Virus record (IMG/VR): IMGVR_UViG_3300017759_001293
Coordinates: 1-24,634 of that record
Origin: a virus
Reading direction: 5' to 3' (one strand)
Length of the DNA: 24,634 bases
Program-made: the position numbers and the translations under genes
Notes under the pieces: generated by a model
Told to the model about the DNA's origin: nothing
What the model saw: the letters and a program-made list of their open reading frames with translations, nothing else
Databases searched by the model: none
Shown: positions 3,322 to 24,634 of the stretch, one piece after another
Layout of the letters: each line of letters opens with the position of its first letter
How positions within the stretch are numbered: the stretch's first letter is position 1

Positions 3322-6300
3322 ATGTGGATTGACCCAATACAGGAATCTGAATTTCATAAAGTCGTTGCAATTGACAAACAAAGATTCAAACAAGCACAAG
3401 AAATAGTAAAAGCAAATCCCTTAATAACTGATTTAACTATTGCTCATACACAACAGAATCCTATTTTATCAAAGAGTATAGTTACAACTTTAGCTATGAT
3501 GAATGTTCCACCTGATGACCCTTCTGTTCAAACATTAGTAGATGAAGCTCAAGCTAATTGGGTTGTACAAGAAACTGAAAAATGGCAAGAGATTAATGAA
3601 AAGTATAGAGATGATAAAGTAACAGATGATATGCACCTTAGCATTGTTGATATTCTTACTGGTGGATATGCACCTGGAGGTAGAACTCCTAAAGAAGTAG
3701 GAGGTTGGTCACCAGCTATATGGCTTATTGGAACACTAGATGCAATTAGAGAAACTTGGAATAAATGGAATCCATTACCAACTTCTGATGTATTGCAATT
3801 TGGTGGTGGAGGTGTTCCCTATAGAGCACAAGGTCGTATATGGAGATATTATCAAGACCTTAATAGATATGATGAATTATTAGAAAAAGGATACTCTCCT
3901 AAACAAGCTCAAGCTAATATAGCTTCTTTAGTAAATATATCTGAAGTACCTAATTTAGGTAGAGATATGGGAGCTGGAGAATTTGAACAGAATTTAGATT
4001 TCTTACAAGAAGCAATTAAATTTTCAGGAGAAAGTTATATTTGGGCAGCAGCTAAAAAAGTATTTAAAGGTGAAGCTGTCAATATGGATAGAAGTAAAAA
4101 ATTCTTTTTTGAATCTGTACATCATGATAAAGACCCTAAGTATCATGAATTATTACAAAAAATGAATGGAGATGAAGAGAAAGCTAAACAGTTATATTAT
4201 TTACAAATTGGTACCCCAATTAAAAAATTAGATGGAAATGGTGAAATAAATTATTTAAGTATTGAAAATCCAAATAAAATTCAAATCTTTGCTGATAGAA
4301 GAACTAATTACAATGATATGAATGTTACTGAATATGCTGCAAGAGAACAAATGAAAGATGCTCAGTTAACAGATTATTCTTGGGGAAGATATGAGACTGG
4401 ACAATTGTTTACACCTGGAGATACACCATACAAAGTAATGTCTGGTTTACTAGACTTTGCATCTGCTTTGCCAGCAGAGTATGCAACAGGTGGTTTATTA
4501 AATCTTTATAAAATCAAAGCTGCTTCTAAAAGTGTTAATGTAGTTAATCAGGCAAAAAAAGTAATAGATAAAACTGGAGATATCAGATGGCTTGATACTA
4601 AATTAGAAGCTAAAGAATTAACTGAGTTAATTAATGTAGCTAAAGATAGGACTACTAAAGCAGGTAAGCAAGCTTTTGATAAATTAACTAAAAGAGAAAA
4701 AGCATTTATTACTGATAAAGCAGAAGCTTCAGCTTGGGCTCTCAATATGGCTAAAGCTGATAAATACAATGGAGTAAATCCACTCATACAAAAAGTATTA
4801 AAATCTCAAAGAACTTTAAAAAGAAAACATGGAATGTTTAATGGAAGATTACAAGGTGTATTCTCTTCAACAGCTGATAGATTAATAAATACTCCTGAAG
4901 CAAGAATACTAATAAAACATTTTGCAGATTCTAGGTCAGCTGATTTAATGTCAGACCCTACATTAAGAAATTGGATTAACAATGATGATTATTGGGAATG
5001 GGTAGGAAGACAAACCGATGAAGGAATAATTTCAGATTCATTAAAAAGTATGATGCATGATGGTTTTACTTATAAGAAATTATCACCAAAAGGTACAGTT
5101 ATAAGCGAAGAACTATTGACAATACCAGGATTACCTAAAGGTTTTTCATATTTAACTAACAAAGCAGTACGTGCAGTAACAGGCAATCAAGATTTTGCAA
5201 TGAGAAGTCTTGGAGGTGTGTTAGGAAAAAATATTAGAACTCCATATCAAGTTTCAAGAAACACTTTAAGACTATTAACACATAAAACTACTAGACAAAA
5301 CGCTGTAAGAAATGCTACAAAGAAAGTAGAAGGGTTAGTTGATGGCCAAGCAGATAGTTGGGATATATTAAAAGAAATATATAAATCGGGAATTAATCCA
5401 AATAAAATATCATTTAAAAAATATCTAGGTTTTAGTGCTAATTTTAGTGATGGAATATCTCCAAGGATGAAAGCTTTGATGTCTGAGTTACCTGGAAGCT
5501 CTATGAATTTAAGTAATCCAAGAATTGCAGCTAGACAATTAGTTAATCATATGAAAGTTAATAAATATACTGCTGATGAATTTGAAACAACTTATAGGTT
5601 ATTTCAAACATCATTAGAAGGTGGATATCAAAAACAAGTTCAATTTACTATGGATTTAATGGAAAATGATTACAACAGAATTAAAAGAAGTCTTCAAGAA
5701 AAGAAAGCTGCAGGTTTAATAAATGATTCACAAGCTAGAGGTCATGAAGTTATTGCTGCTCATATTAAAAAAGTAACAGCTGAATGGAATAAAAAAGAAA
5801 GAGCTTACTGGAAAAGCAATGGTGTAGATACTAATGGTGTATCAAATAACATTCATTCACCTGGTGGAAATACTCCTGAACAAACATTTAAGCTTCTTAT
5901 TGATGGAGATGAAATAGAAATTGTTGTACCACACGCACATGTATTAGCAGAGATGAGTGAAAACGTTATGCCATTTATTAATCAAGATATGGTAGATAGA
6001 GTTAATAGCAAATTGTTTTATCATGTAGATGTTGATGATATTGGTGCTTGGGAAGTTACAGGTGCTGCTAAACAAAATCTTAAAAACTTTTTTGGTAATT
6101 GGAAAGCTGATGGATTAAAAGTTGCTAAATCAGAATATCCAGGTTGGATACCTACTAACAATACAATGGATGATGCAATGACTAAACTATTAGATTTTTA
6201 CACAAGAAAAGTTTTTAAACCAATTGTGTTAATGAGACCAGCTTTTTTTACAAGAATATTTATGGAAGAACAGTTTAGGATATATGCAGCTGGTTTAGAT

Positions 6301-9129
6301 AGTGCTTGGAATAATCCATTGCAATATTTATCATGGGTATTTTCACATACAGAAAAACATCAAGCAGAAGCATTCAAATCTTTATCTACTTGGGACAATA
6401 TTATGAGAAGTCCTGAACATAGAGCATTAACGCATGAACAATGGACTATTAATCTTTTATCTGGTGGAGTAAGTAAAAATAAATATTTAGCTAATTACGA
6501 ACAAGTTGCTTTTGGTCAAAATACTTATAACAAAGGATTAAGAGAAACATTGTTTAAATTAAGAAATGACCCTGTAGCTAGACACTTAGCTAGAGAAGGT
6601 GGAGTTAATGAAGACACTATTAGGTGGTTTCTTGAAGGTAGTGGAAATAGATTTAGACAAGAACTAGCTGAAAAAAGTGATAATTTTAAAAATGTTCGTG
6701 ATATAGATGAACATGCAATAGCGTATCTACATTCAGTAGAAAATAGAATTAGACAAGCAACTGGTCATAATTTAAAAGCTGGTAGAGATTACATGCCATT
6801 TGACCCTAAAGCAATAAACAATCCTAATGCAACTAGTGATTTAATAACTGCACAATTAAGTCACACTACTGATGGAATAGCTGACGAAGGATTTATAGTA
6901 TTAAGAGACATTATTGCTAATGGTGAAATAAAACATATAAAAGGAAATAAATCAACTTTACCTTTCTTGTCAGAAATATCTGATGGAAAATTAAAAGTTA
7001 TTAGTAAATCAGAACAAAAAGAAATAGATAAAGTTTTAAATGATATGATTGATTTCTATGGTCCTGAAAAAATGGATGTAGGTAATTTATTTTATGATAA
7101 CCCTAAAAGAATCGCAGAAGGTAGTGCATGGAAAGGTGAAGAAGTATACGATAAAGCTGTTAATTTTTTGTTTGATAAATTAATGGAAAAACCTTTAAAT
7201 TATTTAAACAGAAGTTCTACATTTAAACAATACCGTTGGGCTTATATAACTAATAATTTTCATAAATATGACGGTGCTTTACAAGTACACTTTATAGATG
7301 AAGCTAAAGCAATGGGTGTACCTAGAAAAGTTATAAAACAATTAGAAAATTTACAATCAGTAGCAGGAGGGAGATATGGTATGGATGCTTATCAAACTAT
7401 AAGTGATGCTAGTAAAGCTTTCGGATTGCAAGCTTCACAAGATTTATTGTATGACATAACTAAACGACATAACATATCTCATAAAACTAGAAACATATTC
7501 CCATTCCCTGAAGTTTGGTTTGAAATGCTTACTACCTGGCCAAAATTATTAGCAGGAAATCCTAAGATATTAAGAAAAGTACAATTGGGACTTAAAGGCG
7601 GTAGGGGTGCATCAGGTCTAGGATTTACAGGAGATGGTTTCTTTGCTGAAGACCCTAATGGTTCAGGTGAACAAATGTTTGTTTATCCATTTGGTGGCTT
7701 TATGGGTAATTTAATATTTGGTGAAGATTCAAATATAGAAATGTCACCTAGAGCATATGTAACAGGAGTTAACTTATTAGGCCAAGGTTTTGTACCTGGT
7801 CCTACACCGTTAGCAGGATTTGCTTTAGATAAAGTTTTACCTGAAACTAGTACAGGAGATGAAGTTAGAAGTGTATTCTTTGGAGACTTTGGACCTCCAA
7901 CAGGTAGAGGTTTCTGGGATGCAATAATTCCTACATCACCATCAATTCAAAAGTTTATGGCTGCATCAAATTGGAACCCTGTAGGTAGTCAAAGTGAAGT
8001 AGAATCTATGAGAGCTAGTACTTCTATTGAAATATATAAGTTATTAAAAATGGAAGGTGGAGAACAAAGGTTATTAGCACAAGGAGCACTTGACCCATAC
8101 TTAGCAAAGATGGAATGGAAAGGTACAACTGCTGATAAACTAGCTGATGAAGATTTAACTCCTGATATAATTGATTCTGCTTTAATTAGTTATTCTAATG
8201 ATAAAGCTAAAACTACTTTCTTATTTAGAGCTATAGCTCAATTCGTAGCACCTACTGGATTTACACCTAGATATTATGCTAAAGATGTAAATGGAAAAAT
8301 GTGGGGTACACAATTGTTAGCTAAAGAATATCAAAACATGGTACAAGAACATAACAATGACCATATAGCTGCTTATGAAACATTTGTAAGAGAATATGGT
8401 TATGAACATGGTTGGTTAACTACTGCTAAAAGTGCTAGTAAATCAGGAAAGAAAGCATATACAAATAGAGTATTAGATTGGCAAAGAGATAATAAAGAAA
8501 TATTAGAACAATTACCATTGTCATCTTTCTATTTATTACCTGATTCAATTTATGAAGAAAGAAGTTATCAAGAAATAATCCAACAATATAATATTGGAGA
8601 AAGAGAAACACTATCTACTGAAGAATTTGCTAAAGCTGCAAATGATACTGTAGGTTATTTTAGATATACAGCTTACAAAAGAAAATTAGAAGTTAATAGA
8701 TTACCAGAACAACAAAAAAATATGTTACTAAGAATATATAGAACTGCATTAATACAAGAATTACCAGGATTTGAAGCAACTGGTGGTTTAAGACAACCTG
8801 CAACATCTAAAGAGATATTAAATGAAATGATAAACAAATGGCCTGAGTTATCTGTATCTTATGAAACAGAAGCAGGTAAAGCTTTTGTAGAAGAGTTTTT
8901 ACCTAAATGGCAACAAAATCAATTAGCTTCTACTTATCGTTCTCCTTCACAAAATCCTGACTGGTGGTTAAGCAGTACAAACCCTACAGCTGTATGGATG
9001 AGAGCTGACTTTCAAGCATGGGCAAATGATTTAATAAGAATATCACCTGATTTTGCACCTATATGGACTAATATAGTTAGCAGAATGTTTAGGAACGACT
9101 TAGAATATTATAATGTACAGGATGTGTAA
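3322..9129 (+). CDS. Giant virion protein (1935 aa), probable internal/ejection-type protein
   Basis: This single open frame of 1935 codons takes up nearly a quarter of the window. The ATG at 3322 directly follows the preceding stop codon and has only a weak AGAAG upstream, so translation is probably coupled. The predicted protein is mostly helical and rich in Lys, Trp and Tyr, with no signal peptide and no clear long coiled coil, which argues against an ordinary tape measure. A motif NIFPFPEVWFEMLTTWPKLL at residues 1391-1410 is followed by a Gly-rich stretch (LKGGRGASGLGFTGDG), which looks like a conserved core. No polymerase, lysozyme or protease active site was recognised. By size and company it resembles the large internal head proteins ejected by podoviruses (for example T7 gp16). 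That role is inferred from context, not from recognised homology. Confidence 0.6.
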   Translation: MWIDPIQESEFHKVVAIDKQRFKQAQEIVKANPLITDLTIAHTQQNPILSKSIVTTLAMMNVPPDDPSVQTLVDEAQANWVVQETEKWQEINEKYRDDKVTDDMHLSIVDILTGGYAPGGRTPKEVGGWSPAIWLIGTLDAIRETWNKWNPLPTSDVLQFGGGGVPYRAQGRIWRYYQDLNRYDELLEKGYSPKQAQANIASLVNISEVPNLGRDMGAGEFEQNLDFLQEAIKFSGESYIWAAAKKVFKGEAVNMDRSKKFFFESVHHDKDPKYHELLQKMNGDEEKAKQLYYLQIGTPIKKLDGNGEINYLSIENPNKIQIFADRRTNYNDMNVTEYAAREQMKDAQLTDYSWGRYETGQLFTPGDTPYKVMSGLLDFASALPAEYATGGLLNLYKIKAASKSVNVVNQAKKVIDKTGDIRWLDTKLEAKELTELINVAKDRTTKAGKQAFDKLTKREKAFITDKAEASAWALNMAKADKYNGVNPLIQKVLKSQRTLKRKHGMFNGRLQGVFSSTADRLINTPEARILIKHFADSRSADLMSDPTLRNWINNDDYWEWVGRQTDEGIISDSLKSMMHDGFTYKKLSPKGTVISEELLTIPGLPKGFSYLTNKAVRAVTGNQDFAMRSLGGVLGKNIRTPYQVSRNTLRLLTHKTTRQNAVRNATKKVEGLVDGQADSWDILKEIYKSGINPNKISFKKYLGFSANFSDGISPRMKALMSELPGSSMNLSNPRIAARQLVNHMKVNKYTADEFETTYRLFQTSLEGGYQKQVQFTMDLMENDYNRIKRSLQEKKAAGLINDSQARGHEVIAAHIKKVTAEWNKKERAYWKSNGVDTNGVSNNIHSPGGNTPEQTFKLLIDGDEIEIVVPHAHVLAEMSENVMPFINQDMVDRVNSKLFYHVDVDDIGAWEVTGAAKQNLKNFFGNWKADGLKVAKSEYPGWIPTNNTMDDAMTKLLDFYTRKVFKPIVLMRPAFFTRIFMEEQFRIYAAGLDSAWNNPLQYLSWVFSHTEKHQAEAFKSLSTWDNIMRSPEHRALTHEQWTINLLSGGVSKNKYLANYEQVAFGQNTYNKGLRETLFKLRNDPVARHLAREGGVNEDTIRWFLEGSGNRFRQELAEKSDNFKNVRDIDEHAIAYLHSVENRIRQATGHNLKAGRDYMPFDPKAINNPNATSDLITAQLSHTTDGIADEGFIVLRDIIANGEIKHIKGNKSTLPFLSEISDGKLKVISKSEQKEIDKVLNDMIDFYGPEKMDVGNLFYDNPKRIAEGSAWKGEEVYDKAVNFLFDKLMEKPLNYLNRSSTFKQYRWAYITNNFHKYDGALQVHFIDEAKAMGVPRKVIKQLENLQSVAGGRYGMDAYQTISDASKAFGLQASQDLLYDITKRHNISHKTRNIFPFPEVWFEMLTTWPKLLAGNPKILRKVQLGLKGGRGASGLGFTGDGFFAEDPNGSGEQMFVYPFGGFMGNLIFGEDSNIEMSPRAYVTGVNLLGQGFVPGPTPLAGFALDKVLPETSTGDEVRSVFFGDFGPPTGRGFWDAIIPTSPSIQKFMAASNWNPVGSQSEVESMRASTSIEIYKLLKMEGGEQRLLAQGALDPYLAKMEWKGTTADKLADEDLTPDIIDSALISYSNDKAKTTFLFRAIAQFVAPTGFTPRYYAKDVNGKMWGTQLLAKEYQNMVQEHNNDHIAAYETFVREYGYEHGWLTTAKSASKSGKKAYTNRVLDWQRDNKEILEQLPLSSFYLLPDSIYEERSYQEIIQQYNIGERETLSTEEFAKAANDTVGYFRYTAYKRKLEVNRLPEQQKNMLLRIYRTALIQELPGFEATGGLRQPATSKEILNEMINKWPELSVSYETEAGKAFVEEFLPKWQQNQLASTYRSPSQNPDWWLSSTNPTAVWMRADFQAWANDLIRISPDFAPIWTNIVSRMFRNDLEYYNVQDV

Positions 9130-16167: not shown

Positions 16168-17289
16168 ATGGCAGCAATTTCGCTGACGAATAGCACTATT
16201 TACTCCCAGAATGTTAACAACTTTACTGGTGAGTTATTTCGTGTTGGTGGGCAAAGAACACCATTTCTCTCCGCAACAGGTGGCTTGAACGGTGGTAAGG
16301 TATTACAATCAACTTTCTGGCAAATCCAGGCAGCTGACAGTGCAGTAGTTTCTTCTGAACCTACAAAGGCTCAAGAAGGTGCTCAACCTACAGAATACTT
16401 AGGTAGAGACAGAGTTGCATTTACAGGTGTTACACAGATTTTCCATAAAGGTGTGAAAATGACTTACACTGGAATGGCTACATTTCAACATCAAAATCCA
16501 TTTGATTTGAGTGCAAATATTATTAACTCATCAGATGGCGATGGAACAGTTACAGCAGCTGATAAATTATCATTAGCTGGAGGTAACCCAATTGTCGATG
16601 AGTTCTCAGAACAAATGACATTGGCTCTTGAAAAAGTTGCAAGAGAAGTAGAATGGTTCGCATTTAATGGAACATTTGCTGATGGAGCAAATACAACTCC
16701 AGGTTCAGGTACTCGTGAAATGCGGGGACTTAAACAATGGATTGGATTAAATGCTAATGCTAATAATACAGTAGCCCCAACAGGCACAGGTGGAAACATC
16801 CACTATTGTGACTCTGATGGTGATGCTACTTCTGCAGCTCGTGATTTAACATGGGATGCAATAGCTGAAGGTATGAAGCGTCTTTATGATGCTCATGCAC
16901 CAATGATACAACCAGTATTATGTGTTACACCTAAGCAATTACTAGCTCTTAACAAAGAATTACTTGCTGGTACCATTGGTACTGCAACAGCAATTCTTCC
17001 TAGAGATAGAAATCTTGCTGGTGTTGACATTGATACTATTGTTACACCATTCGGTGCAATTGGTATGATGGTCATAGACCCTAATATCATGCCTGCAGGC
17101 ACAGCATACATTCTTGACTTTGCTTTCATACAACCAGTATTTACCAATATCCCAGGATTTGGTACTGTGTTTGTAAGAGACTTAGACCAAGACGACTATG
17201 CAAGAGTTGGAAAAGCTATCTATATGGAAATGGGTTATGACTTCGGTCCTTCCTCATACCATTTGCTTTTTGAACAAACAAATAGTTAA
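16168..17289 (+). CDS. Major capsid protein, HK97 fold, SU10/DUF5309-like
   Basis: This protein forms the icosahedral shell. The ATG at 16168 has a strong GGAGG about seven bases upstream. The 373-residue sequence shows a pattern I associate with the SU10-type (DUF5309) capsid family: an N-terminal YSQNVNNFTGELFRVGGQRT region, a central TQIFHKGVKMTYTGMA strand region, the spine-helix-like EQMTLALEKVAREVEWFAFNG, then GTREMRGLKQWI, and a C-terminal beta part with IPGFGTVFVRDLDQDDYARVGK. No protease-cleaved delta domain is evident, fitting the separate scaffold gene. Arg codon use is mixed (5 of 13 are CGN), unlike the nearly pure AGA of surrounding genes, consistent with high expression. A hairpin follows the gene. 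Confidence 0.9.
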   Translation: MAAISLTNSTIYSQNVNNFTGELFRVGGQRTPFLSATGGLNGGKVLQSTFWQIQAADSAVVSSEPTKAQEGAQPTEYLGRDRVAFTGVTQIFHKGVKMTYTGMATFQHQNPFDLSANIINSSDGDGTVTAADKLSLAGGNPIVDEFSEQMTLALEKVAREVEWFAFNGTFADGANTTPGSGTREMRGLKQWIGLNANANNTVAPTGTGGNIHYCDSDGDATSAARDLTWDAIAEGMKRLYDAHAPMIQPVLCVTPKQLLALNKELLAGTIGTATAILPRDRNLAGVDIDTIVTPFGAIGMMVIDPNIMPAGTAYILDFAFIQPVFTNIPGFGTVFVRDLDQDDYARVGKAIYMEMGYDFGPSSYHLLFEQTNS

Positions 17290-17885: not shown

Positions 17886-18892
17886 TGAGTACAAATGTTA
17901 AAGGATTAATTGATAGAGTATATAGAGAATATCTAGAACCAGCAGATGATATAAACTCTTATACAACTGTTCATACAACTATAAACTCTTCCATCACAAC
18001 AGTTAAATATGTAGATAGCTTATTAACTTCTGAAGAAGAAGATGTATTAGATGCAGGTACAGTAATTGAAATTGACCAAGAACTTTTACATTGTACTGCA
18101 GTAGATACTGTTAATAATGAAATAACAGTAATTAGAGCGGTAAGAGGAACTACTGCTGATTCACATGATGCTGGTGCAGTAATTAAAATAGCTCCTGCTT
18201 TTACAAGGAAAGCTGTATTCGATGCAATAGGAGACCAAATAGCTAACTTGTACCCAACACTATATGCAGTAGAAACAAAAACATTAACTAGTGGTACTGG
18301 TTATTCTCTTATAGGAACTTATGGTAGTGATGTAGATGATAGTAATTATTTAGTAACACCTATAAAAGCTATATCACAATATACAGATTGGAGTTCTGGT
18401 AGTGACCAAACAGGTTTAACTTTTAAAGGTGTTGCTGTTGAAATGGTAGATTTACCTAATCCTTTTGTTTGGACTGATGATACTTCAACTGAAAGAACTA
18501 AAACATATACAACTGGCCCAGATGTAGTACATGCTTTACAATGGGTAGGTATAGCTGCAGGACATACTGCTTATGTAACATTTAAAAAGAAATTCAAACA
18601 ACCAATATTAGAAAGTGAAACATTAGTATCAATAGGATTAGAAGATGAATATGAAGCAATTGTTATGGCTGGTGCTGCTGCACATTTACTTTCTGGCAGG
18701 GATATACCTGCTGCTACAGCTGATTTTGTAACAGACCAATTAGCAGTTGCAACATACCCTGTTGGTTCTTCATCAAATATTAGAAATGGTTTATTGTCAT
18801 ATCAAAGATATTTAATAGAACAAGCTAAGAAAGATTTGAAAGCTAGATACCCTGAGCCAGTAGCTCTAAATCAAATAACTTATCCAACCTAA
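17885..18892 (+). CDS. Tail adaptor / head-tail connector (tail tubular protein A-like)
   Basis: This protein probably sits under the portal and links it to the nozzle. The ATG at 17885 lies in TAATG with the preceding gene, without a strong ribosome-binding site, so translation is probably coupled. The N-terminal helix (NVKGLIDRVYREYLEPADDI) is followed by a beta insert (residues 30-95) and a long middle region. The C-terminal helices (EDEYEAIVMAGAAAHLLSG, then GLLSYQRYLIEQAKKDLKARY) resemble the helical bundle of podoviral adaptors. Position just before the propeller-type nozzle candidate matches the T7 gp11-gp12 order. The fold assignment is by pattern and context only. Confidence 0.65.
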   Translation: MSTNVKGLIDRVYREYLEPADDINSYTTVHTTINSSITTVKYVDSLLTSEEEDVLDAGTVIEIDQELLHCTAVDTVNNEITVIRAVRGTTADSHDAGAVIKIAPAFTRKAVFDAIGDQIANLYPTLYAVETKTLTSGTGYSLIGTYGSDVDDSNYLVTPIKAISQYTDWSSGSDQTGLTFKGVAVEMVDLPNPFVWTDDTSTERTKTYTTGPDVVHALQWVGIAAGHTAYVTFKKKFKQPILESETLVSIGLEDEYEAIVMAGAAAHLLSGRDIPAATADFVTDQLAVATYPVGSSSNIRNGLLSYQRYLIEQAKKDLKARYPEPVALNQITYPT

Positions 18893-20817
18893 TGCCAAGA
18901 ATAGCACACGCTGGAGTTGTCAATAATCCTAGAAGACAAGGGTATGACTTTAGGGTTGATGACTATTTACTTAGAGCAGCAACTACTAGAGAACAACCAA
19001 TGACTATACAATCTTCGGATGTACAAGCACAAGAAATAAATGTTAAACAAAATCCAGAAGACTTCACAAGAAACATTGGCCAAATATATTCAAGAAATAA
19101 TTTTTCTGGTGGTAGTAATTTAGACTTTGCACATAAAAGAGGAATGTCAGAATCAGACATTAATAAATTTTGGGATAGTTCTGGAATAAGTATATTTAAT
19201 ATTAATAAAGGTAATCCTTATGATATACAATTATTACATTCTACTGAATTAAAACAAGCATTAGATTCATCAGATGGTGACAATGATTTAGCTGTTGTTG
19301 GTACTACTGTTTATGTATCTAATGATAATGTACTATATAAATCAATAAATGGAGGAGACACATGGAGTACGGAAAGTCATGGACTTACAGCTGGATACCA
19401 TATAAAAGGATTAGCAGCTCACGGAAATTTGCTATATATAGCAGCAAACAATGGAAGTGCAGGGGAATTAGAAACTTGGGACGGTAGTACATCTACACAA
19501 AAAGTATCTGCTGCAATTTATGATGGCATATGGTCTGTTAAAGGTTTAATGCTTGTATCTACTGGTACTACTTTACATCAATATGATGGTGCTACAACAG
19601 TAGGTTCGGCCATTGAAACATTACCAGTAGGACAAACTTGGACTGATGTTGTAGATGCTGGTGCAGTTATATTAGCTGTTGCTAGTGATGGAAGAATATA
19701 TTCAATTAAAGATAATGCTGGTACATTTGCATCTAAAGGTACAACTGAACTTAAAGATGAAATACCTACTTGTATTACTGAAGCACAAGGTAAAATATTT
19801 TATGGAACTAAAGTACCAAGAACTGATTCTAAAGTTATTGGAAGATTATATAGTGCTGATTTAGTTGCAGCTGATGACCTTTATGTATTATCTAACCAAC
19901 AATTAATTAAAGAATGGAACATTGATGGTGTTGATGCTAGTCCCAATGCTTTGTTTTCAACAAGAGATTCTGTCTATACGGGTATAAAAGAATCAGGTAG
20001 TAATTCTTATTTATGGAGATTTTACTTACCTACTGCAGGTATAGCCAGAGACTTAAAGTGTGGTGCTAGTGGTGTAATAAAAGGTATTGGTAGTATAGAT
20101 GAAGCTATACTATCTACTGTTCAAGCTAGTGGTGTGTACAAAGAAACAGATAACTATGAAGAAGAAGGTTATATAATAACACCTTTAGCAGATTTTTTTA
20201 CTGCTGAACAAAAACAATGGGTTGAAGCTTTATTAGAAACAGGTAGTGTTTTAGCAGGAGAAGAAGTAGAACTATATGTATCTACAGAAATAGCATCTAT
20301 TAATGATTCTACACATAGTAGTTGGGATAAAGTTGTATTTGACCAAGAAGGTAATTCATTAAAAACAGCACAGATGGATAAAATATCTAGATATGTTACT
20401 GCAAAACTTGTACTTAAATCACAAGGTAATGTAACTACACCTGTAGTAAATTCTATACAAATTAGAGCATTAGCAAGACCTGAATTAGTTGTAGTACAAA
20501 TACCTGTAAATATTTCTGATAGAGTTGAAAGACCATTTAGAAAACCATTTACTGTTAAAAATTTAGGTGAAACAATTTATCAATCATTAAAACAAAAAGA
20601 AGGTTCTCCTGTTACATTAGAAATTTATGACCCTGCTGAAGTTATTAGAGGAGTAGTTGAATCTATTCAATACCCAATTGACAATAACGCAAATATTGGT
20701 AGTGTTACTAGAGTAGCAATTTTAACAATAAGGGGGACAAGACAAACTGTTTCTGCTACAGTAACATCAGGAGATACATTTGGAATAAATGCATTTGGTA
20801 TTATGAGATTTGGATAA
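18892..20817 (+). CDS. Tail nozzle candidate with beta-propeller repeats (tail tubular protein B-like)
   Basis: The ATG at 18892 overlaps the adaptor stop codon (TAATG) and has no ribosome-binding site. After about 125 residues of N-terminal region come propeller-like blades: TVYVSNDNVLYKSINGGDTW with a near-canonical Asp-box (S151-W158), then LLYIAANNGSAGELETWDGS, then LVSTGTTLHQYDGAT, then ILAVASDGRIYSIKD, then KIFYGTKV. Nozzle proteins of short-tailed phages such as T7 gp12 contain a beta-propeller, so fold and position agree. The C-terminal part (from about 410) is a different beta domain that ends in FGINAFGIMRFG (630-641). A sialidase-type enzyme is less likely because no catalytic set is visible. 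Confidence 0.65.
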   Translation: MPRIAHAGVVNNPRRQGYDFRVDDYLLRAATTREQPMTIQSSDVQAQEINVKQNPEDFTRNIGQIYSRNNFSGGSNLDFAHKRGMSESDINKFWDSSGISIFNINKGNPYDIQLLHSTELKQALDSSDGDNDLAVVGTTVYVSNDNVLYKSINGGDTWSTESHGLTAGYHIKGLAAHGNLLYIAANNGSAGELETWDGSTSTQKVSAAIYDGIWSVKGLMLVSTGTTLHQYDGATTVGSAIETLPVGQTWTDVVDAGAVILAVASDGRIYSIKDNAGTFASKGTTELKDEIPTCITEAQGKIFYGTKVPRTDSKVIGRLYSADLVAADDLYVLSNQQLIKEWNIDGVDASPNALFSTRDSVYTGIKESGSNSYLWRFYLPTAGIARDLKCGASGVIKGIGSIDEAILSTVQASGVYKETDNYEEEGYIITPLADFFTAEQKQWVEALLETGSVLAGEEVELYVSTEIASINDSTHSSWDKVVFDQEGNSLKTAQMDKISRYVTAKLVLKSQGNVTTPVVNSIQIRALARPELVVVQIPVNISDRVERPFRKPFTVKNLGETIYQSLKQKEGSPVTLEIYDPAEVIRGVVESIQYPIDNNANIGSVTRVAILTIRGTRQTVSATVTSGDTFGINAFGIMRFG

Positions 20818-20837: not shown

Positions 20838-21902
20838 ATGACAGCGTTAGAATCAAACATAGGTAATGCAGTTGAGGTAACACTTGACGCACAATTAAAC
20901 TCAGGCAGTGGTAATACTACACTTGATATGGCATCAGACCCTGGTATAGCTGCTCCTGCTTATTTAGTTTTAAATCCAGATAACGATAGTAAAAGAGAAG
21001 TTGTTAAATGGACAAGCGGTGCTTTTGGTTCCGCAACAATAGAAAGAGATAAAGATAATAAAAACAGTGGTAATGGTTATACACATGCTGCTGGAGATAC
21101 AGTAAGACAAGCTGTAGTTAAACAACATTTTGAAGATGTACATGATGCTATTCAACAAGGTTTTATATTAGAAGATGGAGATGGAACAGAAGTAGAGATT
21201 AAACCTGCTGTTGCTTCAGGTGCTTATACGGCAAGAGAAGTAAAATTTGTTGAAGGTGCAGGTATTGATATTAACTGGAGTGATGTTACAGATGGTACTG
21301 ATGCAGACCCATACGATTTAACATTCACAGTTGGTGGATTAACTACATCAGAAATTGCTGCAGGTAGTTTAGTAATAGAATCAGAAACAATTACATCAAA
21401 TGATAATGATACAACTATACCTACATCAGCAGCAGTTAAGAATTATGCAGATGCAGAAACAGCTACCCTAACAAATAAAACATTAGGTGCTGTTACTTTA
21501 TCAGGTGCTGTGACAGGTGGCGACCAAACAATATCAGCAGCAGTATTAAAAGATTATAATGAAACAACAGCAGCTATTACATCAGCAGAAGATATGTCCA
21601 TAGACTTAGCAAATGGTAATACAGGTACAGTAACATTAGCACACAATGTTGATGACTTACATTTTTTAAATGTACCAGCAACAGGAGTAACAACATTTAC
21701 TTTAGTAGCAACACAAGATGGAACTGGTTCAAGAACAATGGACATAGATGCAGTAAGTGTTAATGGTGGAGGAGATGTCGCAGCTAAAACTGCAGGTGGT
21801 GCAGGACTAACGCTATCAACAGCAGCTAATGCTATAGACATACTTACATTTGTATTCGTAGGTACAACACCATATTTATTTAGCCAACTAGCGTTTGCGT
21901 AA
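20838..21902 (+). CDS. Tail fibre / appendage protein (354 aa)
   Basis: The ATG at 20838 is the only good start; a TATAAT box lies eight bases upstream. The N-terminal domain (about 1-100; VTLDAQLNSGSGNTTLDM, REVVKWTSGAFGSATIERD, GYTHAAGDTVRQAVVKQHF) has the form of fibre N-terminal attachment domains common in marine phages. A fibrous centre contains NDNDTTIPTSAAVKNYADA and TATLTNKTLGAVTLSGAVTGG, typical low-complexity shaft repeats. The C-terminal region from about 225 is a beta-rich tip rich in Thr, Gly and Ala. It overlaps the first of three small beta proteins by one base, which suggests that these complete the receptor-binding apparatus. Confidence 0.8.
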   Translation: MTALESNIGNAVEVTLDAQLNSGSGNTTLDMASDPGIAAPAYLVLNPDNDSKREVVKWTSGAFGSATIERDKDNKNSGNGYTHAAGDTVRQAVVKQHFEDVHDAIQQGFILEDGDGTEVEIKPAVASGAYTAREVKFVEGAGIDINWSDVTDGTDADPYDLTFTVGGLTTSEIAAGSLVIESETITSNDNDTTIPTSAAVKNYADAETATLTNKTLGAVTLSGAVTGGDQTISAAVLKDYNETTAAITSAEDMSIDLANGNTGTVTLAHNVDDLHFLNVPATGVTTFTLVATQDGTGSRTMDIDAVSVNGGGDVAAKTAGGAGLTLSTAANAIDILTFVFVGTTPYLFSQLAFA

Positions 21903-22483
21903 TGGCTCCATTAGGTGTAGCTAGAGCCATAATCACAATGGGTGGAGACCTAGGTGTGTATCAACTTATTCAATCACAAACTGTTAGTGGTGTATCAGCA
22001 ATCAATTTTACATCTATTAAAGAAAGTCAATATGGAACACATGTAGTGTTTTATCAATTAGATAATGCTACTGATAATGCAATAGCAAGTATTAGATTAT
22101 TTGAAAGTGGTACATTAGAGGACCAAGGTGTTTATAAAGAACATTGGTTTGAAAGTGTTGCAGATGGTTCTAGTGAAAATTCAGGAGCTCAAACATCTAC
22201 AGCAAGTACAAGTCGTAATCATATTAGAGTTGGAGAAAATCAAGGTAATGCTAGTTTAGAATTTAGCACAGGATATTTTTATATTTACAACGCAGGTAAT
22301 TCTTCTTTTCACACAACTGTGAATGGTCACAATCATGCACTAGGTACAGGAAATGAAGTTATACAAGGATTTGGTGGTGGAGTATTACCACAAGCATCTA
22401 CTGTAGATGGGTTCAGAGTATTTGATAGTAACAATGGTGGTAACTATACAGGCACTGTAAGCTTATATGGATTGGAACAATGA
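21902..22483 (+). CDS. Beta-rich tail-tip / receptor-binding module 1 (193 aa)
   Basis: The start ATG at 21902 lies in TAATG with the fibre gene and has no ribosome-binding site. The N-terminus (MAPLGVARAIITMGGDLG) is followed by a beta-sandwich-like body: INFTSIKESQYGTHVVFYQL, IRLFESGTLEDQG, TGYFYIYNAGNSSFHTTVNG, ending TVDGFRVFDSNNGGNYTGTVSLYGLEQ. The ending GNYTGTVSLYGLE, Gly-rich strand plus YG(L/V), recurs in the next two genes and resembles domains at the tips of marine phage fibres. It is probably a receptor-binding or chaperoned tip subunit; this role is inferred from position and pattern. Confidence 0.65.
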   Translation: MAPLGVARAIITMGGDLGVYQLIQSQTVSGVSAINFTSIKESQYGTHVVFYQLDNATDNAIASIRLFESGTLEDQGVYKEHWFESVADGSSENSGAQTSTASTSRNHIRVGENQGNASLEFSTGYFYIYNAGNSSFHTTVNGHNHALGTGNEVIQGFGGGVLPQASTVDGFRVFDSNNGGNYTGTVSLYGLEQ

Positions 22484-22998
22484 AATTAATTAAAGCAGAA
22501 ACACTAAGCACAGGAGTAAACTTCGATAAAATATCTGATGTATTTTCTGCTGATTATAAAGTATACAAGATAGTCGTATCAGGATTAGTAGGTAATGAAA
22601 GTACAGCTACAGGTGCAAATGCTAGGTTAGTAAAGGCATCTGATGATAGTGTAGAAAGTGGTACTGTTTATGAATATGGATTATATTCTTTAAAAGCTGA
22701 AGCATCTAACACAGTTAGTAGAGATACAGATGACACTAGGTGGTTTAATGCTTTTGGTGGTATAGATGATGGAGCACAAGCAAGTGGTGGTGCATTGTAT
22801 GTATTTAATCCATTTGATAGTGCTAATACTTTTGCTATATGGCAAGGTACAAATCATGCAGGTGGTCCAAACTTTAGAAGTTATTGGGGTAAAGGTGTTA
22901 TACTAAACACAACTTCTTATGATGGTATTGTAATAGATTTAAATGAAAGTGATGCAAGAATTGGTGGAGGCATTGTGTCAATATATGGTGTTTGTTAA
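22480..22998 (+). CDS. Beta-rich tail-tip / receptor-binding module 2 (172 aa)
   Basis: The ATG at 22480 overlaps the preceding TGA (ATGA). The core pattern is FSADYKVYKIVVSGLVG, ARLVKASDDSVESGTVYEYG, GGALYVFNPFDSANTFAIWQG and a C-terminal SYDGIVIDLNESDARIGGGIVSIYGVC. The YDxYKIVVSxL type strand and the closing YGV strand are typical of jelly-roll-like fibre tip domains. It shares layout and the closing motif with the genes before and after, so the three look like diverged paralogues. No signal peptide or membrane span is present. Confidence 0.65.
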   Translation: MKLIKAETLSTGVNFDKISDVFSADYKVYKIVVSGLVGNESTATGANARLVKASDDSVESGTVYEYGLYSLKAEASNTVSRDTDDTRWFNAFGGIDDGAQASGGALYVFNPFDSANTFAIWQGTNHAGGPNFRSYWGKGVILNTTSYDGIVIDLNESDARIGGGIVSIYGVC

Positions 22999-23531
22999 TG
23001 AGTAAATATACACAATTAAGTACAGCTACAGCTAGTAATACAGGTTCAGTAACATTAACAGGAATTACTTCAGAGTACCCTGTTGCAATACTTTATTATG
23101 ATAGTGCTCTTCCTGCTACTGATGGTGCAGATTTAATGTTTAGATTGCGTGAGAGTGGTGGTTCTGATAATTCTAATTCTAATTATAATTCGGTTATAGC
23201 GTATCAGAGAAGCGATAGAGATTTCGATGACGAGGACGGCGATAACTTAGGACTAGGAGATAAAGATAAAGTTAACTTAACAGGCTCTACTCATGATGGT
23301 GCTAATCAAGGTTATGGAGGTATCTTATATATACATAATGCTGCTAATGGTAGTGAAGCAACTTATGTTCAATCTGATACAGTTTATTTAACAAATGGTA
23401 GTCCATTTATGTTAGGACAAATAGGTGGAACAGTTCTAAGAGAAGCTACAACAGTTACAGGTATAACTTTATTTTATGACACAGGCAATATAGCAACAGG
23501 TAATTTTACATTAGTTGGTATTAAAAATTAA
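22998..23531 (+). CDS. Beta-rich tail-tip / receptor-binding module 3 (177 aa)
   Basis: The start is ATG 22998, in TAATG with the preceding gene; the TTG at 22992 lies inside the upstream gene and is not needed. The body follows the same order as module 2: EYPVAILYYDSALPATDGADLMFRLRESGG, then a charged loop (SDRDFDDEDGDNLGLGDKDK), then GGILYIHNAANGSEATYVQS, and a closing VTGITLFYDTGNIATGNFTLVGIKN. The Asp-rich loop at about residues 75-95 could bind calcium, though this is speculation. It is a probable paralogue of the two proteins upstream. Confidence 0.65.
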   Translation: MSKYTQLSTATASNTGSVTLTGITSEYPVAILYYDSALPATDGADLMFRLRESGGSDNSNSNYNSVIAYQRSDRDFDDEDGDNLGLGDKDKVNLTGSTHDGANQGYGGILYIHNAANGSEATYVQSDTVYLTNGSPFMLGQIGGTVLREATTVTGITLFYDTGNIATGNFTLVGIKN

Positions 23532-23554: not shown

Positions 23555-23857
23555 ATGGCAACAAGAGATGAACTAGAAGTACAAGCTACATCAGAGATTG
23601 AAGCAGCTAAACCGATTAATAAATCGGAGAATGGTGTTGTATCTGAATTTTCTGATGCAGATTATGCACAGGCAATAACAGACCTTACCAATAGTAAATG
23701 GGATAACCAAGAAAATGGTTGGCTCTATGCAAGAAAAGCTGCTTATCCATCTATAGGTGACCAACTAGATATGCAGTATCATGATGCTGTTGATGGTACA
23801 ACTACTTGGAAAGATGCAGTAGCTAAAGTTAAATCAGATAATCCTAAACCTTCCTAA
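23555..23857 (+). CDS. Conserved tail-region protein (100 aa), YPSIGDQLDMxYHD type
   Basis: The ATG at 23555 follows AGGAG with good spacing. The protein is helical with a short signature, ARKAAYPSIGDQLDMQYHDAVDG, followed by TTTWKDAVAKVKSDNPKPS. This C-terminal pattern is familiar from many marine tailed phages, where such genes sit next to fibre genes. The role in those phages is not established; fibre assembly or attachment is a common guess. It closes the tail-fibre block; an extended -10 box follows at once. Confidence 0.75.
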   Translation: MATRDELEVQATSEIEAAKPINKSENGVVSEFSDADYAQAITDLTNSKWDNQENGWLYARKAAYPSIGDQLDMQYHDAVDGTTTWKDAVAKVKSDNPKPS

Positions 23858-24011: not shown

Positions 24012-24189
24012 CGGCAATGGATTTACACAAAAAGAAATGCTTCAACTTATACTGGAAGGGCAACAAGATATAAACAAACGCATAGATGAATTACATGAAA
24101 AGGTTAATCAGAAAATATCAAGACAAGAATTATCTGGATGGTTAGTTGCAATTTCTGCACTGGTGGTGTTAATCAATAACTTAATGTGA
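23998..24189 (+). CDS. Holin/XhlA-like membrane protein (63 aa)
   Basis: The ATG at 23998 is preferred over an upstream TTG at 23980. The product has a polar N-terminus (MTSHNGNGFTQKEM), a charged helix likely to form a coiled coil (LQLILEGQQDINKRIDELHE) and one C-terminal transmembrane helix (LSGWLVAISALVVLINNLM, about 45-63). Coiled coil plus C-terminal anchor is the layout of XhlA-type haemolysin/holin-associated proteins. It sits after the tail genes, a usual place for lysis genes, and overlaps both neighbours. No endolysin is visible in the window, so the lysis role is inferred. Confidence 0.6.
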   Translation: MTSHNGNGFTQKEMLQLILEGQQDINKRIDELHEKVNQKISRQELSGWLVAISALVVLINNLM

Positions 24190-24634
24190 AAAAGTTATTA
24201 GCTGTTGTAGCTTCAGTATTATTAATAGCTACTCCTGTATATGCATATCATACTGAAACACAGACACCTTATGGTATAAACATATCTGTTGATAATGAAA
24301 CAGGAGAGATAGAACTTACTTGGCAAGAAAGTGATGCGTTAGAAGTTAATCCACCTGAGTACTATAGGTTATTTTTTGGTGATGATGACCAAGCAGCAGA
24401 CTTCTCTATAGATACTAGCTTTGGTTTCAATGAAGCATTGTCCTGGAGAACTTATTACTTTACTCCTGCATTTATAGATGAGAAATTTGAAACAACAACA
24501 CTTACATTCTATGCAAAGATACAAGCAAGGAATGACACAGGTGGTACAGTTAGTGACTTAACTGCAGTAGTTAGTGTAGAATATGATTATGATTATGTAC
24601 CTACTTCAACGACATCTAGTACGACAACAAGCTC
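24186..24634 (+). CDS. Secreted beta-sandwich protein with Ser/Thr-rich linker, 3' end outside window
   Basis: The frame starts with GTG at 24186, overlapping the preceding TGA by three bases, and stays open to the window end (149 codons seen). Residues 1-20 (MKKLLAVVASVLLIATPVYA) form a classical Sec signal peptide with an AYA-type cleavage site. Next comes a beta-sandwich-like domain (about 25-135; INISVDNETGEIELTWQESD, YYRLFFGDDD, VVSVEYDYDYV) with a fibronectin-III-like feel. The visible end is a Ser/Thr-rich linker (TSTTSSTTTS). Signal plus domain plus linker implies export and a further domain beyond the window. A cell-wall-acting enzyme could follow, but this cannot be seen. Confidence 0.75.
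   Translation, partial: MKKLLAVVASVLLIATPVYAYHTETQTPYGINISVDNETGEIELTWQESDALEVNPPEYYRLFFGDDDQAADFSIDTSFGFNEALSWRTYYFTPAFIDEKFETTTLTFYAKIQARNDTGGTVSDLTAVVSVEYDYDYVPTSTTSSTTTS

Follow-up and report, generated by a model that had tools for sequence, protein, structure and literature searches.

A trio of tandem beta-sandwich genes as a candidate heterotrimeric receptor-binding head of phages

Why does a phage carry three related genes in a row behind a fibre-like gene, and do their products act separately or as one body? The question is raised by the IMG/VR virus record IMGVR_UViG_3300017759_001293, which was analysed as a whole (24,634 bases, G+C 33.8%) and is called the window here. A capsid gene is followed in it by genes G, F, A, B, C and T, in that order, and the trio A, B and C is the subject of this study. 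A preliminary description, made from the letters of the window, regarded the trio as diverged copies of a fibre-tip domain that could give either several receptor specificities or a hetero-oligomeric tip. We favour, with moderate confidence, the interpretation that A, B and C assemble in a 1:1:1 ratio into an obligate heterotrimer, a receptor-binding head that sits at a fibre tip and is exchanged as a cassette.

Three homologous genes in tandem

The trio comprises the following features, assigned by the tree, sequence profiles and structure prediction described below.

21902-22483, plus strand: gene A, type 1 (t1), 193 amino acids, an N-terminal plug followed by a beta-sandwich domain (t1 clade of the tree; AlphaFold2)
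21902-21949, plus strand: plug-coding part of A, residues 1-16, alpha class, with a putative anchoring role; MAPLGVARAIITMGGD
22480-22998, plus strand: gene B, type 2 (t2), 172 amino acids, the domain alone and plug-free (tree, profiles)
22998-23531, plus strand: gene C, type 3 (t3), 177 amino acids, the domain alone and plug-free (tree, profiles)

The genes meet at TAATG (F/A), at an ATGA overlap (A/B) and at a TAATG overlap (B/C). The ATG at 22998 within the last junction is the likely start of C; the program that listed the open reading frames (ORFs) had chosen a TTG at 22992.

Pairwise homology was tested by comparing alignment scores (BLOSUM62, -11/-1) with those of 1000 shuffles. The local z-scores were 12.8 for A-C, 6.1 for A-B and 3.0 for B-C (3.7 for the global B-C alignment), and other settings gave B-C values from 1.5 (p 0.08) up to 4.6. 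Seven control pairs with the neighbour proteins F, H and T ranged from -1.3 to 2.7. The B-C similarity is weak in pairwise comparison, yet the homology is settled because profile-profile comparisons of the types with their orthologues gave probabilities of 99.8-99.9% for all three pairs over about 170 columns. A, B and C are homologues over their full length. Chance similarity was considered and is ruled out by the shuffle z-scores together with the profile comparisons.

These results agree with the preliminary description on several points. The three related beta-rich products in tandem, the overlapping gene ends at A/B and B/C, and the closing motifs YTGTVSLYGLE, IGGGIVSIYGV and ATGNFTLVGIK are all found in the ORFs, and the homology and the single predicted fold (see below) bear out diverged copies of one fibre-tip-like domain. 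The glycine content of the three products is 12-13%. A Pfam search with A, B and C gave no match up to an expectation value (E) of 1. The PHROG 14820 profile was matched weakly by C (E 0.12) and not by A or B, and it matches 14 of 64 trio rows (best 2e-17); A also shows a weak match to PHROG 240, annotated as head protein (E 0.11).

Copy number in relatives

Used as queries, A and C found one other contig only, from a nearly identical phage; L010, the twin of the window, is counted together with it. With the conserved protein G as an anchor, 57 loci were found (loci are numbered with the prefix L). Complete arrays in these have three genes (L010, L016, L030, L048 and L062) or six (L004, L018, L019, L020, L024, L040, L042 and L056), the arrays of L013 and L014 run off their contigs, and L039 is odd. 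No array was found in the remaining G-anchored loci, some of which have little or no sequence beyond G. Although these loci were fetched regardless of an array, 13 of the 14 with a complete array fit a trio rule, by which types follow one another exactly as 1-2-3 or 1-2-3-1-2-3.

In a tree of 66 copies, from which L010, L013 and L039 were left out, the copies group by their position in the trio and not by genome, with 4 label changes compared with 31.8 in shuffles. Copies 4, 5 and 6 of the six-gene arrays are types 1, 2 and 3 again. Two long branches misfit, namely copy 3 of L056, which entered the tree with a wrong ORF start, and copy 6 of L024. On this phylogenetic evidence, the three positions represent three orthologous types across phages.

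Three further scans gave 25, 80 and 80 loci, the last two being the best 80 of 287 and the best 80 of 138 relatives. All collected loci together contain 862 domain ORFs (overlapping loci counted repeatedly) in 198 runs; deduplication left 116 runs, 68 of which have both ends within the contig. Among these complete runs, 123123 occurs in 36, 123 in 26 and another order in 6, and hence 62 of 68 obey the trio rule. The runs cut by contig ends are substrings of 123123 in 48 of 48 cases, one of which (L061) is a hit to the plug of a Gly-rich protein. The rule also holds for 50 of 56 arrays outside the profile-building set, and held-out ORFs were typed with a median margin of 93 bits (minimum 0). 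Two misfits are a plug-only match in a Gly-rich protein (L026) and a t1 cut by the contig end (L095); the others are discussed below. In complete runs the genes of one trio mostly overlap their neighbours: the spacing from t1 to t2 is -4 in 41, -1 in 38 and +3 in 15 of the 100 listed, and that from t2 to t3 is -1 in 88 of the 101 listed. The gap between successive trios is 0 to +7 in 32 of 38, which means that the trios are mostly separate from each other. The preliminary description had proposed a check for copy-number variation in relatives, and loci with 0, 3 and 6 copies were found. Beyond what it saw, the copies come in multiples of three.

In L197 (6164-7596), a t2 of the second trio with an internal deletion and a frame change lies between an intact t1 and t3, either because this head has decayed or because the contig was misassembled.

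The N-terminal plug and Gly-rich proteins

Among the trio types, the N-terminal plug is present on t1 only, and t2 and t3 are without it. The alpha plug of A is common to the t1 proteins of L014, L030, L048 and others, and its MPLGAARFG form also starts a Gly-rich protein of L027. At one and the same locus, three plug classes (alpha, beta and long) are found on trios as well as on lone Gly-rich adhesin-like proteins. In many trio-free loci, Gly-rich proteins that begin with like extensions are located at the trio site; the Gly-rich protein of L016 matches PF21722. A profile of 103 long plugs, built without any Gly-rich member, matches 12 of 27 distinct Gly-rich N-termini and none of the 99 other cassette ORFs or the 416 t2 and t3 N-termini. 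The 15 unmatched Gly-rich N-termini consist of 8 with a beta plug, 1 with an alpha plug and 6 with neither, and L052, one with neither class, resembles the matched L047. On trios, the beta plug was found in L144 and L152.

The plug class tracks the protein that precedes the first t1. Alpha plugs follow an F protein ending in ..LAFA or LxDF in 8 of 20 cases by a strict pattern; the other 12 have different F endings, of which the six listed are mostly similar. The beta plug of L144 follows an F protein ending in DDVHEA, and the upstream end of L152 is not visible. Long plugs follow a small protein of about 110 amino acids in 59 of 64 cases. The exceptions are L111, L061 and L161, with no upstream gene in view, L103, where the plug follows the end of a t3, and L026, which is a Gly-rich protein like L061. 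The C-terminal class of F in the window (..LFSQLAFA) goes with the alpha plug, and we regard this end as the putative socket.

The same two positions are occupied by two trios (L004), by a trio and a Gly-rich protein (L016 and L062) or by two Gly-rich proteins (L026, L031 and L032, the last two of which look alike), and each trio of the six-gene arrays has its own plug. Hence a full trio, which carries one plug, occupies the place of one Gly-rich chain, which also carries one plug. The trio has its plug and locus in common with the local Gly-rich proteins, but A, B and C do not have the Gly-rich, PF21722-like sequence.

Other ORFs were noticed near these cassettes. In L046, L047, L051, L052, L058 and L064, two or three adjacent ORFs of 230-255 amino acids with a QPAxNFIPxWYK-like motif lie between the Gly-rich head and k69 and may form a second tandem family in trio-free phages. 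ORFs of 360-380 amino acids lie near the head cassette in L021, L023, L035, L050 and L063; counted from the end of G, the distances are 4785, 4192, 4296, 3307 and 2783 bases, respectively. Those displayed start with an IxGKGTAG...VGEGT-like pattern, which presumably recalls flavin-dependent tryptophan halogenases. On the contig of L046 and L047 (IMGVR_UViG_3300020468_000009, 52,898 bases), the G relative and the following genes occur twice, towards both ends, probably because of terminal redundancy or an assembly repeat.

Divergence between conserved flanks

The G proteins of L062 and L069 are 99% identical and their trio proteins only 36-40%; for L019 and L020, the corresponding values are 98% and 36-50%. 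Ten pairs with a G identity of at least 85% show the same pattern, with a partial exception in L030/L144 (79% for t2). In 135 deduplicated pairs in which the small upstream protein is at least 90% identical, the median identities of t1, t2 and t3 are 50, 45 and 48%, and all three trio proteins are below 70% identity in 96% of the pairs. The hotspot of change that the preliminary description expected here is supported by the two pairs whose anchors are 98-99% identical. The distances of t1, t2 and t3 correlate across 19 trios (Spearman 0.53-0.62, p 0.0005-0.0015), with L014 and the trios incomplete in alignment A6 left out of the test. The head is probably exchanged as a cassette between related phages.

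Predicted fold and packing

AlphaFold2 predicted A as an all-beta protein with a short N-terminal helix, with a predicted local distance difference test (pLDDT) score of 89.9 and a predicted template modelling (pTM) score of 0.84. A and the t1, t2 and t3 proteins of L125 were each predicted as a 12-strand beta sandwich. The comparison of folds proposed earlier thus gives one fold, with the L125 orthologues standing in for B and C.

The L125 trio naturally lies in one reading frame, and it was folded as a single chain with the stops read as glycine and with 32 fused alignment rows, each type on its own third. The model contains three 12-strand sandwiches with a pTM of 0.72, whereas the pTM formula gives about 0.32-0.37 for independently placed domains; by the same formula, 0.72 corresponds to inter-domain errors near 5 Å. 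This result supports, but does not prove, mutual packing of the three domains. Alignment A11, which combined fused and single rows, was rejected because its single t1 rows had shifted to the third domain.

A search of the BFVD structure database with A gave 135 matches at E ≤ 0.001, the best at 1.3e-16, with template modelling (TM) scores, relative to the query, of up to 0.83. The same predicted fold is found in marine and other phages (A0A516KYD7, A0A516KYE7, A0A516KYE9, A0A6J5NEP3 and others), so that, on the predicted models, it is widespread; several matches differ from A in being longer chains annotated as tail fibre, Stf repeat or collagen repeat. A PDB structure search for a known fold returned generic beta-sandwich matches only, led by a GH32 C-terminal sandwich (Z 8.4), galectin-8 (7.2) and a C1q single chain (6.0). 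In PDB sequence searches, alignment A1 gave only a weak match to 11S globulin (E 0.1), and alignment A6 gave nothing up to E 10. In the Foldseek rows that name clostridial proteins, the TM-score does not exceed 0.32.

A0A516MP80 of BFVD (391 amino acids) aligns to the linked-trio model over 393 columns, with TM-scores of 0.28 and 0.40 and a root-mean-square deviation of 13.4, as if a single natural chain combined two of the trio domains.

A proposed composite head and its alternatives

We propose that each chain contributes one beta-sandwich domain to a three-chain head at the tip of an attachment fibre. The plug of A would dock the whole head on the upstream fibre or adaptor protein, and B and C, which have no extension, would join through A. 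The overlapping stop and start codons may ensure that the three products are made in equal amounts. Once assembled, the head would most likely bind a host surface receptor that varies, and its cassette could give way either to another trio or to a lone Gly-rich adhesin with a like plug; many phages would carry two heads. Between the two options of the preliminary description, we prefer the hetero-oligomeric tip to a set of independent specificities because the copies come as ordered trios, the anchor is on the first copy only and a whole trio takes the place of one Gly-rich protein. Our judgement is evenly poised on the fuller version, a head of three tandem paralogues on a single anchor that draws combinatorial specificity from three differently evolving faces and is plug-compatible with Gly-rich adhesins.

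The one fold with strong divergence, the variation of copy number among phages and some recombination within trios would also suit three receptor-binding proteins that act separately, as homotrimers or monomers, each with its own specificity. We consider this unlikely, since copies arrive as ordered trios (62 of 68), none of the 416 t2 and t3 N-termini has the plug, the types stay distinct across phages and a whole trio occupies the place of one Gly-rich protein. A hetero-oligomer could instead reside elsewhere than at the tip, for example in a baseplate or collar ring, with other proteins binding the receptor. Such a location has a precedent in the heterotrimers described for the baseplate bowl of phage Mysterious (see below), and six-gene arrays could furnish a ring. 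It is nevertheless quite improbable, as the divergence between conserved flanks and the site and plug shared with Gly-rich proteins suit an exposed head better, and each trio of a six-gene array has a plug of its own. Capsid decoration or neck proteins, to which the PHROG 240 match of A might point, are hardly credible given the position in the gene order and an array, in L244, downstream of a tape-measure-like gene.

Several observations weigh against the heterotrimeric head at the fibre tip. The alpha plug was found on one Gly-rich protein only (L027), and the beta plug on two trios only. Single members recombine too, because t1, t2 and t3 of one trio often have different nearest neighbours and because L004 and L062 share t1 (85%) and t2 (80%) but only 36% in t3. 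Three further loci depart from the trio rule: L160 has apparently unrelated DNA in the expected place of t1 and no t1 in the contig, L197 (counted twice) has an internally deleted second t2, and L039 has recognisable t1 and t2 followed by a third gene of 210 amino acids that is not recognisable. The 80-locus scans used t1 or t3 queries and took the best 80 each, and arrays lacking t1 or t3 would therefore escape them. The pTM of 0.72 was obtained with chains linked through stops read as glycine, a 32-row alignment and a baseline from the formula only. Finally, a search of 50,697 phage records gave no match for A, C, t3 of L048, or t1 and t2 of L020, and no host can be taken from sequenced isolates because these five queries found no close relatives there.

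Genome context and host

The remaining features used here are the following.

16168-17289, plus strand: major capsid protein (PF17236, SU10_MCP)
18892-20817, plus strand: gene G, 641 amino acids, conserved, function unassigned, the anchor for finding relatives
20838-21902, plus strand: gene F, 354 amino acids, fibre/adaptor-like, function unassigned, C-terminal class ..LFSQLAFA
23555-23857, plus strand: gene T, 100 amino acids, a small gene found after trio arrays (PHROG 9114, function unassigned)

Upstream of the capsid gene (3322-9129), an ORF of 1935 amino acids is followed by ORFs of 520, 847, 408 and 336 amino acids, all large and unassigned. At 24186-24632, a signal-peptide-like protein runs off the end of the window; in L010 (7224-8927) it has 567 amino acids and an extremely Glu-rich C-terminal part, and in many loci relatives follow the head cassette.

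The major capsid protein matches mostly Mycobacterium and Propionibacterium phages, with 24-31% identity (24 records). The sole genome_contigs match is a contig of Candidatus Actinomarina AG-919-G14 (L244), with a 123123 array followed by T. Upstream of that array lie a tape-measure-like gene (PHROG 31409, E 5.5e-6) and three genes with function-less PHROG matches. The 29-kb viral sequence of that single cell is described as a bona fide phage of this host, with a variable part annotated by its authors as sialic-acid removal (PMC7771536). Another study lists two phages of Actinomarina, 40.5 and 46.6 kb long and with G+C contents of 34.6 and 34.0% (PMC5628999). Cassette kinship and base composition suggest that the host of the window phage, which is marine, is probably Candidatus Actinomarina or related marine actinobacteria.

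Comparison with known systems and significance

Receptor-binding tips of tailed phages are usually seen as homotrimers or single adhesin chains. A preprint describes gp35, gp36 and gp37 of mycobacteriophage Mysterious, encoded by three adjacent genes, as beta-sandwich chains that form a heterotrimer by cryo-electron microscopy, six of which make up the baseplate bowl (PMC13252515). The likeness lies in three adjacent genes for beta-sandwich chains, and the window trio likewise consists of adjacent paralogues with overlapping ends; as a difference, the accessible preprint text describes no trio duplication or adhesin exchange. In Acadian (L245), which we take to be a cluster relative of Mysterious, the gp35, gp36 and gp37 genes overlap by 4 bases. 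Only its gp35 and gp36 are clearly paralogous (local z 15.8); the signal is weak for gp35-gp37 (local 1.5, global 3.8) and weaker still for gp36-gp37 (local -0.8, global 2.3). No homology between the trio and Acadian gp35-37 was detected by hmmsearch or hhalign (probability ≤ 0.3%). The Mysterious heterotrimer is the closest experimental precedent, an analogue without detected kinship by the sequence test on Acadian.

The C1q globular head is a heterotrimer of homologous beta-sandwich A, B and C chains, available as a single-chain structure (5hkj). It serves as a works-like analogy; 5hkj matched one domain only (Z 6.0), perhaps through a common arrangement. The gp38 adhesin of the T2/S16 type is described as a single Gly-rich chain with a polyglycine-II core (PMC12892980). 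Like the proposed head, it is a variable receptor-binding piece ending a trimeric fibre, and here the Gly-rich proteins share the plug and position of the trio; the difference is one Gly-rich chain against three beta-sandwich chains. Among the open-licence PMC papers listed by the literature searches, none was seen to describe trios such as these.

If the proposal is correct, host recognition would be solved in a distinct way, by three different, separately diverging chains that share one anchor. The proposal predicts obligate co-assembly, one plug per head and interchangeable heads, such that phages would combine either kind of head with the same socket. It could also explain a hypervariable island in the phages of widespread, uncultured ocean actinobacteria.

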